The position numbers were made by a program, and so were the translations under genes. Source: Photobacterium iliopiscarium (GTDB taxonomy: Bacteria; Pseudomonadota; Gammaproteobacteria; Enterobacterales; Vibrionaceae). From it: DNA of 64,000 nt. The stretch spans positions 310,001-374,000 of the forward strand of contig NZ_PYOO01000001.1 of the NCBI RefSeq assembly GCF_003026395.1, in the 5' to 3' direction. Below are positions 56,451 to 63,571 of this stretch, piece after piece. Every line of letters starts with the position of its first letter. Within the stretch, counting starts at the first letter, position 1. The notes beneath the pieces were generated by a model. It saw nothing but the letters and a program-made list of their open reading frames with translations, had not been told where the DNA came from and searched no databases.

Positions 56451-56530
56451 GACGCAAAAAATCCTCACATTTCTGACAAGAATTCGTTGTGAAGTGGACG
56501 GGACTTGCCATTCCGAAAATCAGCGCGACC
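56451..56530 (-). repeat. tRNA-Asp-derived unit 1 (degenerate, outermost), array 1
   Basis: Carries the altered terminator copy and G-A-A-G-T-G-G-A-C-G-G-G-A-C-T-type tRNA 3' remnant (56491-56505) plus the constant block, then loses similarity. Separated from the other units by the MITE-like element. Confidence 0.75.
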
Positions 56531-56589
56531 AGCGTAATAAACTGACACCAACTACATTCATTACTTACAGCGAGATGACAAGCTAACCA

Positions 56590-56759
56590 CCGTCATTCCC
56601 TACAGCGAGGTTACGAGCGGCGATAGGGAATCTATCTTCCGCACTTTGTAGAGTAACTATGCTCATTGATGTTTTAGCGGATGTTCACTGCTGTTCTTAA
56701 TGCTCAAACACTCGATAAATAGATCACGGATAGTTCGTGCCTCCCTTTCGAGATGCTGG
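56590..56759. mobile_element. MITE-like element, copy 1 (diverged)
   Basis: 170-bp relative of the two 168-bp copies at 62373 and 62622. Left end CCGTCAT is kept; the right end has mutated from ATGACGG. Contains the internal TTCCCTA...TAGGGAA inverted repeat. No coding capacity. Confidence 0.65.
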
Positions 56760-56803
56760 ATAATAATCAGCAGGTATTCACTGTAAAAAATAGCCATAGA
56801 ATA

Positions 56804-56960
56804 GATGCAAAAAATCCTCACATTTCTGACGAGGATTCGTTGTGTTGCGAAGTCGACGGGACTTGCCATTCCGAAAATCAGCGCGCCCCCCATCATGACC
56901 GCTCGGTAATCATAGCCAAAGGAGATATTACGTTCTATTAATTATGATTTAGATAATCCA
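56804..56960 (-). repeat. tRNA-Asp-derived unit 2, array 1
   Basis: 157-bp unit: terminator copy, mutated tRNA-Asp 3' end (GCGAAGTCGACGGGACT), constant block replacing the T arm, C-run, then a 75-bp tail that ends at the next unit. In the tRNA's direction the order is reversed. Confidence 0.85.
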
Positions 56961-57118
56961 GATGCAAAAAATCCTCACATTTCTGACGAGGATTCGTTGT
57001 GTTGGCGGAGTGGACGGGACTTGCCATTCCGAAAATCAGCGCGCCCCCCATCATGACCGCTCGGTAATCATAGCCAAAGGAGATATTACGTTCTATTAAT
57101 TATGATTTAGATAATCCA
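56961..57118 (-). repeat. tRNA-Asp-derived unit 3, array 1 (intact CCA end)
   Basis: 158-bp unit. Positions 57003-57021 match the last 19 nt of tRNA-Asp exactly, CCA included, then diverge at once into the constant block. Tail nearly identical to unit 2. Confidence 0.9.
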
Positions 57119-57276
57119 GATGCAAAAAATCCCCGTCATTTCTGACGAGGATTCGTTGTGTTGTGAAGTGGACGGGACTTGCCATTCCGAAAATCAGCGC
57201 GCCCCCCAGCATGACCGTTCGGTAATCATAGCCAAAGGATATATTACGTTCTATTAATTATAATTTAGATAATCCA
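57119..57276 (-). repeat. tRNA-Asp-derived unit 4, array 1
   Basis: 158-bp unit next to the real tRNA-Asp. Terminator copy is the strong 11-bp form, but the tRNA 3' end is mutated (GTGAAGTGGACGGGACT). Confidence 0.88.
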
Positions 57277-57281
57277 GATGC

Positions 57282-57311
57282 AAAAAATCCCCGTCATTTC
57301 TGACGAGGATT
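57282..57311 (-). terminator. Terminator of tRNA operon, copy 1
   Basis: 11-bp stem with one mismatch (57286-57296 / 57301-57311), TTTC loop, T6 on the minus strand. Confidence 0.85.
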
Positions 57312-57319
57312 CGTTGTGT

Positions 57320-57396
57320 TGGCGGAGTGGACGGGACTCGAACCCGCGACCCCCGGCGTGACAGGCCGGTATTCTAACCAACTGAACTACCACTCC
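57320..57396 (-). tRNA. tRNA-Asp (GUC)
   Basis: 77 nt with encoded CCA. Acceptor GGAGTGG/CCACTCC, D arm with GTTGGTTAG, anticodon loop CTGTCAC (GUC), variable loop and T loop GGTTCGAGTCC all normal. Downstream of tRNA-Ser in the same transcript. Confidence 0.97.
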
Positions 57397-57436: not shown

Positions 57437-57527
57437 TGGCGGAGAGATAGGGATTTGAACCCTAGATACGCTATAAACGTATGCTGGTTTTCAAGACCAG
57501 TGCTTTCAACCGCTCAGCCATCTCTCC
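57437..57527 (-). tRNA. tRNA-Ser (UGA)
   Basis: 91 nt with encoded CCA and a long variable arm as expected for Ser. Acceptor GGAGAGA/TCTCTCC, anticodon loop CTTGAAA (UGA). First gene of the tRNA operon. Confidence 0.97.
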
Positions 57528-62310: not shown

Positions 62311-62372
62311 TTGTTTGATTCGCAATTAACTAACCTTGTGTCATTCTCGACAACAAGGTGACGAACAACCAC

Positions 62373-62540
62373 CCGTCATTCCCTACAGTGAGGTTACGAA
62401 CGAGATAGGGAATCTACTTCCCACGTGTCGTAGAGTGACTGTTTTCGTTGAGTTTTAACGTATGTTCACTGCCGTCTTTAATACTCAAACACGTGATGAA
62501 TAGATCACGGATAGTTCATACCTCTCTTTCGAGATGACGG
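62373..62540. mobile_element. MITE-like element, copy 2
   Basis: 168 bp with terminal inverted repeats CCGTCAT/ATGACGG and an internal TTCCCTA/TAGGGAA inverted repeat. Non-coding. Nearly identical to 62622-62789; similarity extends about 19 bp to the left of the terminal repeat in both. Confidence 0.7.
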
Positions 62541-62621
62541 ATAATAGCCCGCGTTATTATCTGTAGTATTGTACGAACGACATTCATCGTCATTCCCTAC
62601 AGCAAGGTGACGAACAACCAC

Positions 62622-62789
62622 CCGTCATTCCCTACAGTGAGGTTACGAACGAGATAGGGAATCTACTTCCCACGTGTAGTAAAGTGACTGTTTTCGTTGA
62701 GTTTTAACGTATATTCACTGCCGTCTTTAATGCTCAAACACGTGATGAATAGATCACGGATAGTTCGTACCTCTCTTCCGAGATGACGG
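62622..62789. mobile_element. MITE-like element, copy 3
   Basis: 168 bp, same ends and internal structure as copy 2, 249 bp away in direct orientation. A part copy of the left end (CGTCATTCCCTACAG) precedes it at 62588. Confidence 0.7.
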
Positions 62790-62820
62790 ATAATAACCCA
62801 CAATCATTTAGCATAGAACA

Positions 62821-62986
62821 GATGCAAAAAATCCTCACATTTCTGACGAGGATTCGTTGTGTTGTGAAGCGGACGGGACTTGCCATTCTGAAAATCAGCG
62901 CGCCCCCCTGCGTGACAGGCCGACTATTGACACTTATGCCATCATTTATCGCATCTAACATTTATTATCTAGGTTTTGAAACTCCA
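62821..62986 (-). repeat. tRNA-Asp-derived unit a, array 2
   Basis: 166-bp unit: terminator copy, mutated tRNA-Asp 3' end, constant T-arm-replacing block, C-run, then a remnant of the anticodon arm (GCGTGACAGGCCG) and a 65-bp tail. Confidence 0.88.
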
Positions 62987-63153
62987 GATGCAAAAAATCC
63001 CCGTCATTTCTGACGAGGATTCGTTGTGTTGTGAAGTGGACGGGACTTGCCATTCCGAAAATCAGCGCGCCCCCCTGCGTGACAGGCCGACTATTGACAC
63101 TTATGCCATCATTTATCGCATCTAACATTTATTATCTAGGTTTTGAAACTCTA
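62987..63153 (-). repeat. tRNA-Asp-derived unit b, array 2
   Basis: 167-bp unit with the strong terminator copy and mutated tRNA 3' end (GTGAAGTGGACGGGACT). Tail as in unit a. Confidence 0.88.
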
Positions 63154-63320
63154 GATGCAAAAAATCCTCACATTTCTGACGAGGATTCGTTGTGTTGGCG
63201 GAGTGGACGGGACTTGCCATTCCGAAAATCAGCGCGCCCCCCAGCGTGACAGGCCGACTATTGACACTTATGCCATCATTTATCGCATTTAACATTTATT
63301 ATCTAGGTTTTGAAACTCCA
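63154..63320 (-). repeat. tRNA-Asp-derived unit c, array 2 (intact CCA end)
   Basis: 167-bp unit. Positions 63196-63214 match the last 19 nt of tRNA-Asp, CCA included. Adjoins the real tRNA-Asp unit. Confidence 0.9.
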
Positions 63321-63325
63321 GATGC

Positions 63326-63355
63326 AAAAAATCCCCGTCATTTCTGACGAGGATT
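63326..63355 (-). terminator. Terminator of tRNA operon, copy 2
   Basis: Stem 63330-63340 / 63345-63355, TTTC loop, T6 on the minus strand. Confidence 0.85.
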
Positions 63356-63363
63356 CGTTGTGT

Positions 63364-63440
63364 TGGCGGAGTGGACGGGACTCGAACCCGCGACCCCCGG
63401 CGTGACAGGCCGGTATTCTAACCAACTGAACTACCACTCC
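63364..63440 (-). tRNA. tRNA-Asp (GUC), second copy
   Basis: 77 nt, identical to the copy at 57320-57396, with encoded CCA and GUC anticodon. Confidence 0.97.
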
Positions 63441-63480: not shown

Positions 63481-63571
63481 TGGCGGAGAGATAGGGATTT
63501 GAACCCTAGATACGCTATAAACGTATGCTGGTTTTCAAGACCAGTGCTTTCAACCGCTCAGCCATCTCTCC
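63481..63571 (-). tRNA. tRNA-Ser (UGA), second copy
   Basis: 91 nt, identical to the copy at 57437-57527, with UGA anticodon and long variable arm. Confidence 0.97.

Follow-up and report, generated by a model that had tools for sequence, protein, structure and literature searches.

Tandem arrays behind two tRNA-Asp genes

The window, by which we mean the whole 64,000-nt stretch of the Photobacterium iliopiscarium contig analysed here, contains two tRNA-Ser/tRNA-Asp pairs on the minus strand, and each is followed by a tandem array of repeats. In the first pair ARAGORN places tRNA-Ser (TGA) at 57437-57527 and the true tRNA-Asp (GTC) at 57320-57396, the latter with an Rfam score of 70.4 bits. 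Array 1 lies directly downstream on the same strand and is reported by TRF at 56803-57338, with a period of 158, 3.4 copies and 95% matches. The tandem array that a preliminary description of this DNA had placed behind tRNA-Asp is thus real, and the range given for it was 56804-57338; its last 19 nt (57320-57338) belong to the true tRNA, as the 3' end of that gene, and are not part of a repeat. The second pair consists of tRNA-Ser (TGA) at 63481-63571 and a tRNA-Asp (GTC) at 63364-63440 that is identical to the first (both ARAGORN calls on the minus strand). Behind it lies array 2 (62819-63382, TRF period 167), with three units of 167-168 nt.

In transcript order a unit comprises a terminator-like hairpin with a U run, an AT-rich spacer, the anticodon arm of tRNA-Asp, a 20-nt block designated M, and the last 19 nt of tRNA-Asp. 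The tRNA remnant in each unit is therefore a 3' half of tRNA-Asp in which M has taken the place of most of the T-arm. A tRNA 3'-end segment in every unit had been recognized in the preliminary description, which took those 19 nt to be the whole remnant and so overlooked the anticodon arm and the replaced T-arm. Array 1 consists of three such units of 158-159 nt and a degenerate fourth, all on the minus strand. The tRNA-adjoining unit (57161-57319, 159 nt) has a mutated tRNA end, AGTCCCGTCCACTTCACAA, at 57161-57179; the middle unit (57003-57160) carries at 57003-57021 the exact 19-nt end that had earlier been assigned to the third unit; and the distal unit (56845-57002) again has a mutated end, at 56845-56863. 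Block M is exact in all three, at 57181-57200, 57023-57042 and 56865-56884 respectively, and reads on the plus strand, that is, antisense at the T-arm position of the pseudo-tRNA-Asp. The degenerate fourth unit (56487-56844, 358 nt) has its tRNA end at 56487-56505 and M at 56507-56526, and is enlarged by an interspersed repeat. In array 2, also on the minus strand, the tRNA-adjoining unit (63196-63363) has an exact 19-nt end at 63196-63214 and M at 63216-63235, the middle unit (63029-63195) has M at 63049-63068, and the distal unit (62862-63028) has M with one mismatch at 62882-62901.

The 19-nt end of tRNA-Asp is exact in two of the seven units and differs by 3-4 mismatches in the other five, namely by three each in the units at 56845, 57161 and 56487 and by three and four in the two non-exact ends of array 2. 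Matches to this 19-mer with up to 4 mismatches occur in the whole window only in the two tRNA-Asp genes and the seven units, and at 5 mismatches only three more appear, the two tRNA-Ser ends and one unrelated place. A chance origin of the tRNA ends in the units, which the preliminary description had named as a possible objection, is excluded. Within the two arrays ARAGORN and Rfam return the true tRNA genes only, and none of the units holds a functional tRNA-Asp cloverleaf with a GTC anticodon. The exact CCA end is lost in five of the seven units, which weakens an earlier proposal that each unit is a decoy for tRNA 3'-end enzymes.

The repeat inside the degenerate unit is a 249-bp interspersed element (GTCATTCCCTACAG..GATAGGGAATCTA) that is present once there (56558-56802) and twice in tandem before array 2 (62340-62799); similar sequence was seen by eye beside the Asp arrays of loci L022 and L026. 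Two matches to RF04351 (Plastid-psbl-rps4 3UTR) on the plus strand (57440-57492 and 63484-63536) are below the cut-off and lie antisense to tRNA-Ser. A match to sX4 (RF02223) overlaps tRNA-Ser, and both of these models may contain tRNA sequence.

Terminator-like hairpins and promoter-like sites

A terminator-like hairpin per unit had been predicted, and on folding a hairpin with a U run follows all seven units as well as both tRNA-Asp genes, with 52-nt folds of -7.0 to -19.5 kcal/mol. Around array 1, on the minus strand, these hairpins lie at 57282-57312 after tRNA-Asp (-19.5 kcal/mol for the 52-nt stretch), at 57124-57154 after the first unit (-19.5 kcal/mol), at 56966-56995 after the middle unit (-13.5 kcal/mol) and at 56809-56838 after the distal unit (-13.5 kcal/mol). 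A simple terminator scan of the array regions did not list these unit hairpins. Where 2.9 promoter-like sites (sd 2.0) would be expected in the region of array 1, a scan finds 6; in the region of array 2 it finds 2, with 3.0 expected. Such counts are by themselves no evidence for promoters inside the units. Three of the six sites in array 1 recur once per unit (57284, 57126 and 56968); the same scan gave no match inside the array 2 units.

Distribution of block M

Block M, the 20-mer GCCATTCCGAAAATCAGCGC, has 17 copies in this genome at up to 3 mismatches, all 17 inside pseudo-tRNA units, while the reversed pattern has none at the same threshold. It occurs in two settings, antisense in pseudo-tRNA-Asp in place of most of the T-arm, and sense in arrays of pseudo-tRNA-Trp (L024, L025) in place of the anticodon loop. 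The flanks are alike at both sites (GGACT..CGCG for Asp, read antisense, and GGATTC..CGCG for Trp, read sense). Pairing between Trp and Asp transcripts through M, which would be complementary over at most 20 nt, is possible given the opposite orientations; the variants differ by at least one base in several species, and the idea is not relied on here. Nor is M claimed as a hairpin of its own, the fold being weak by eye. In the Trp arrays, units with two different terminator-like hairpins alternate, and L025 shows an additional TRF period of 290 bp.

Among 329 genomes of the family the M pattern (at most 1 mismatch) is found in 18, namely 17 of the 52 Photobacterium genomes and one elsewhere in which it is unrelated to a tRNA. 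The contexts of M grouped as Photobacterium number 103, a figure in which overlapping loci may be counted twice. A matching true tRNA lies upstream on the same strand within 2.5 kb in 84 of them, and 15 more are unit-like but cut, 13 within 500 nt of the end of a stretch and 2 behind N runs; the remaining four are unrelated, and one of these (L159) comes from another genus, g4. The units are thus not found mainly away from tRNA genes, and the tie to such genes that had been proposed holds. Outside Photobacterium the picture is different: among the matches listed (at least 80 stretches), at least 51 M contexts have no same-strand tRNA within 2.5 kb of the examined stretch. The Asp and Trp flank labels are too loose for these contexts, many of which, by eye, have one flank in common, like members of one gene. 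A separate case is found in P. damselae (L128, 170-260; also L055), where a tRNA-Asp behind a 5S-like stretch near a contig start has M in its T-arm; this is either a recombinant from which the true tRNA was lost or an assembly join.

Full-length pseudo-tRNA-Asp copies in related genomes

A search of the 329 genomes for tRNA-Asp 3' ends without the preceding G, which excludes the tRNA itself, returned such ends in 21 genomes of four genera. In genus g2 and in two genomes of genus g12 these ends belong to pseudo-tRNA-Asp copies built on the same plan. The full-length copies are mostly 102-109 nt long, against 77 nt for tRNA-Asp, with tRNA sequence flanking M on both sides. An alignment (A1) was made from 31 of the 36 copies found by pattern (L055, L172, L422, L423 and one row of L411, 1834-1942, were left out); four further full-length copies, one each in L048, L121, L213 and L217, were missed by the pattern and stand outside these counts. 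The aligned copies keep the tRNA ends and carry a second replacement block, N, at the D-arm. The two blocks differ in their distribution: N is about as alike between Photobacterium and g2 (0.73) as within Photobacterium (0.68), whereas likeness of the T-arm block is 0.45 between the genera and 0.82 and 0.84 within them.

In the N hairpin 276 of 306 alignment cells are paired, against 194-197 when the pairing is slid by one column, a count for which one gap was shifted in rows without column 24, and several of its pairs are changed on both sides. Over the whole structure, in the unmoved alignment, 87.2% of cells are paired against 84.6% in shuffles, none of 500 of which reaches this value; for the covariation score the figures are 0.190 and 0.149 (0 of 500), and cells changed on both sides number 20 against 8.3 (3 of 500). 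Two other measures show no excess over shuffles, namely the number of pairs with both sides changed (4, with 2.8 in shuffles; 109 of 500) and the number of pair types (376 of 500). Single-copy folds are close to those of shuffled sequences (mean z -1.2 over 36 copies). As the RNAalifold consensus pairs the acceptor in a shifted register, the tRNA register was used for the structure statistics and for the covariance model described below. The acceptor stem and the N hairpin are retained in most aligned copies, and acceptor pair 5:101 is doubly changed (CG in 13 rows, UA in 13, UG in 3, other in 2). The anticodon loop is changed in 25 of the 31 rows, 22 of these at U33, G34 or U35, though the rows are related and the 25 changed loops do not represent as many independent events.

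The covariance model (R1) gives true tRNA-Asp 65.8-66.1 bits, the window units 34.6-52.5 bits, and two full-length copies elsewhere in this genome (L021) 96.3 and 106.2 bits. The window units look like truncated forms of such full-length copies. At E<1e-15, above the score of true tRNA-Asp, R1 finds copies in 36 of 325 family genomes from three genera (18 genomes of Photobacterium, 12 of the 14 of g2 and 6 of g12). Among 27 R1 loci a tRNA-Asp lies upstream in 16 and not in 7, and 4 were missed by the pattern; of the seven, five have less than 500 nt of examined upstream sequence, L450 lies behind an N run, and L447 has no tRNA. No Rfam family matches the strand of the full-length copies at E<=0.01 in the five loci searched. 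The presence of M in only 17 of 52 genomes of the genus, together with copies above the tRNA score in only 6 genomes of g12, indicates that the element is dispensable.

The retained acceptor stem, with its doubly changed pair, and the retained N hairpin raise the possibility of a tRNA-mimic RNA family, in which the pseudo-tRNA-Asp would be expressed and bind a tRNA partner (a processing enzyme, a synthetase or a stress nuclease) as a decoy. The promoter-like match once per unit in array 1 would fit such a role. There is also a precedent in the tRNA-Other of Bacillus cereus, described as a tRNA-like gene with no translation function that nevertheless has an effect; that element is a single pseudo-tRNA flanking a pathogenicity island, in contrast to the tandem operon tail of the window (PMC3399842, as far as the text available to us goes). 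Still, we consider this explanation unlikely. Every unit sits behind a terminator-like hairpin, the window units are truncated and mostly without an intact CCA end, array 2 offers no promoter-like match within its units, and the acceptor change may stem from gene conversion with the tRNA rather than from selection on pairing.

Unit ends follow the adjoining tRNA

One acceptor position varies among tRNA-Asp genes, which read either CCACT or CCGCT, and it allows each unit to be compared with its own tRNA. Of 21 loci entered into this comparison four gave no units; in 30 of 34 units from 18 arrays the base at the unit end is that of the adjoining tRNA. Both tRNA-Asp genes of the window have CCACT, whereas the Ser-Asp pair tRNAs in named relatives have CCGCT. 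The A is present in six of the seven window units; the exception is the most distal unit of array 2, which retains the G and reads CCGCT, as in the tRNA-Asp of the relatives. In the counter-case, L217 and L218, none of three units matches the tRNA base. This distribution indicates that the arrays change in step with the adjoining tRNA. Shared ancestry explains part of the agreement; beyond that, we infer that unit ends have been repeatedly rewritten from the tRNA gene, with gene conversion or unequal crossing over as the probable route.

Arrays behind other tRNAs and amplification of true tRNA genes

That the design would recur on other tRNAs and in other genera had been anticipated in part, and both are borne out. 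In addition to the Trp arrays, arrays lie behind tRNA-Asn in this genome (L028, L033) and in a relative (G051, L207), where by eye the unit is a pseudo-tRNA-Asn. Its D-arm is swapped for about 20 nt resembling block N of the Asp copies, with a degenerate 3' end of the penultimate tRNA before it and a terminator-like hairpin after it (both by eye). ARAGORN makes odd tRNA calls inside the Asn arrays, and two of the L207 copies score just above the Rfam tRNA cut-off (32.0 and 31.5 against 29). Pseudo-tRNA-Asn copies are reported as tRNAs by ARAGORN or Rfam, for example as Gln or as Asn with odd positions, in L207 (4181-4268 and 4391-4482), L028 (678-767 and 3203-3272) and L033 (2277-2346), and annotated tRNA counts in such genomes may therefore be inflated. 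Locus L207 (G051:C2:454500-464000) has 25 ARAGORN tRNAs in repeated Ser-Asp-Thr-Tyr(-Asn) operons, and its Asn array is, by eye, seemingly split by a transposase-like gene.

True tRNA genes in tandem were also observed (L029, L030, L031 and L208), with tRNA-Val about every 121 bp and Phe-Asn-Thr about every 378 bp; those of this genome sit at contig ends. Several contigs of the genome end in or near arrays of the pseudo-tRNA kind.

Amplification of true tRNA genes bears on the possibility that the arrays are selfish or neutral debris, in which tail duplicates arise often in a tRNA-rich genome, decay, and stay alike by recombination with no function for the unit. This explanation has a sizeable though less than even chance of being correct. 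The tandem tRNA-Val and Phe-Asn-Thr genes of this same genome speak for it, as do the different copy numbers and unit lengths (139, 158, 167 and about 180 nt) seen from locus to locus and from species to species, the mutated ends of five of the seven window units, and the genomes of the genus that lack M or have no pseudo-tRNA-Asp above the tRNA score. It accounts less readily for the recurrence of the same replacement blocks at the same tRNA positions, or for an N block that is roughly as similar between genera as within Photobacterium and keeps its pairing through changes. Of the 31 rows, moreover, 11 have a loop change at U33 and 9 at U35, with C32 and A37 spared, although with related rows these events are not independent.

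Comparison with RtT and other tRNA-linked repeats

To our knowledge, what is known of the rtT repeats of E. coli comes mostly from a single operon. In E. coli rttR is annotated at NC_000913.3 1287066-1287236, and its end is a CCA copy. Matches to RtT (RF00391; E<=1e-3) were found in 33 of 101 sampled genomes of the family and in 33 of 185 sampled genomes of the class. In the class sample a tRNA on the same strand, in every case one for Tyr, Gln or Ser, lies no more than 700 nt upstream of 29 of the 30 RtT loci, and in the 30 family loci examined a tRNA-Ser is present. Copied ends were compared in 42 loci, comprising E. coli, all 30 loci of the class sample and 11 of the 30 from the family. In 32 of them the final 18-20 nt of the adjoining tRNA recur exactly, in 21 of these as a 19-nt copy cut at TTCG|A; the other 10 have a shorter copy, none, or no tRNA (L390). 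Taken over the RtT units behind tRNAs for Tyr, Gln and Ser, this 19-nt cut at TTCG|A is the most frequent. Ends of other tRNAs gave none of 1986 runs of at least 15 nt in the RtT loci. The RtT model itself holds a CCA end, which favours loci with such an end and not a match to the particular tRNA.

RtT and the window arrays are alike in having tandem units directly downstream of a tRNA gene and in carrying a copy of the tRNA 3' end cut in the T-loop, the copy in the window being exact in two of seven units only. They differ in their interior: RtT has a conserved core of about 75-80 nt (by eye, from the Rfam alignment), whereas the window units have the anticodon arm and M instead. Most RtT loci have inverted T-arm pieces of 8-11 nt at recurring distances, a length that single shuffles also reach (8-12), while no inverted T-arm run of 7 nt or more is present in six window units, the degenerate unit being left out. 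No match to the RtT covariance model at E<=1 occurs between 56 and 64 kb of the window, the genome has no RtT match under stricter filters, and the array unit has no match in E. coli genomes. The likeness to rtT drawn in the preliminary description thus stands for the cut point and fails for rtT itself. The window units share the RtT cut point and would at most work alike; judged by their sequence, they are not members of RtT. Compared with tRNA-Asp itself (RF00005), the source of the acceptor strands, anticodon arm and 3' end, the copies have parts of the D-arm and T-arm replaced and the anticodon loop usually altered.

Related phenomena are known from other bacteria. Variants in the copy number of rtT and tRNA-Gly units are described for two Salmonella Paratyphi A genomes, in which tandem tRNA-linked VNTRs of 175 and 220 bp vary in copy number between close strains; in the part of that paper available to us the units are listed as variants, without unit anatomy (PMC2658671). 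RtT-family RNAs are described near Asn and Lys tRNA genes in Actinobacillus, in a paper whose available text also cites the release of rtT from tRNA operons (PMC4986893). In an RNA-seq study of P. profundum, as its available text describes, the expression comparison excluded repeated regions such as parts of tRNA genes (PMC3505737). Among open PMC papers no paper on the arrays themselves was found.

Integrases that target tRNA genes use the T-loop and the anticodon loop. The same two loops are the cut sites here (the T-loop for Asp and for RtT, the anticodon loop for Trp), and the arrays might accordingly be seen as scars of integrating elements, with M as the remnant of an attachment site. 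The two positions of M, T-arm for Asp and anticodon loop for Trp, are compatible with this, and direct repeats of 18-20 nt cut at the T-loop resemble attachment cores. Such an origin is nonetheless highly improbable, given that M is flanked by tRNA sequence on either side in full-length units, that viral contigs contain neither exact M with its trailing G nor exact N, and that phage and plasmid records gave no match to a 218-nt stretch of the array. A link to mobile elements was rejected on these searches.

Evolutionary interpretation

Taken as a whole, the arrays are in our judgment a new variant of tRNA operon-tail repeats that appears distinct from RtT. The explanation we favour, at a probability of about one half, is that each array is a tRNA operon tail made of decoding-dead tRNA-Asp copies, each with its own terminator. 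An operon tail, consisting of the tRNA and its terminator, would first have been duplicated in tandem, with copy number shifting by unequal crossing over. The tRNA function would then have been lost in the patterned way that is visible in the full-length relatives, where a longer hairpin (N) has taken in the 3' side of the D-arm, a block specific to the genus (M in Photobacterium) stands in for most of the T-arm, and the anticodon loop is usually altered; the window units have in addition lost the 5' half. Gene conversion or crossing over would have copied sequence of the adjoining tRNA gene onto the tRNA-derived parts, so that unit ends follow the local tRNA; the pattern is observed, and the route is the probable one. 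Finally, transcription that runs past the tRNA terminator would meet further terminators in series, and the read-through RNA would be a trailer of units unable to act as tRNA, which might be trimmed at tRNA-like CCA ends, as the annotated E. coli rttR suggests. Against this explanation we count the mutated CCA end in five of the seven window units, the base mismatch in L217/L218 and in one window unit, and folds only slightly better than those of shuffles (mean z -1.2).

A wider reading, which we put forward as a speculation with the odds clearly against it, is that gammaproteobacterial tRNA operon tails are adaptable elements, with a constant core (the RtT core, or N with M) and ends copied from the upstream tRNA from a point in the T-loop that lies most often at TTCG|A. 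For Photobacterium and one other genus of the family, one class of such tails may by now be a tRNA mimic that is conserved, cannot decode, has an enlarged hairpin at the D-arm and acts on tRNA processing or on termination.

Since one cut point is shared by units behind tRNAs for Tyr, Gln, Ser and Asp, and unit ends track the tRNA next to them, the origin and upkeep of operon tails are now testable in many genomes. If the copies are active, they would constitute a tRNA-like RNA family without a model; if they are inactive, they would offer a clear natural example of sequences being rewritten between a tRNA gene and dead copies of it.
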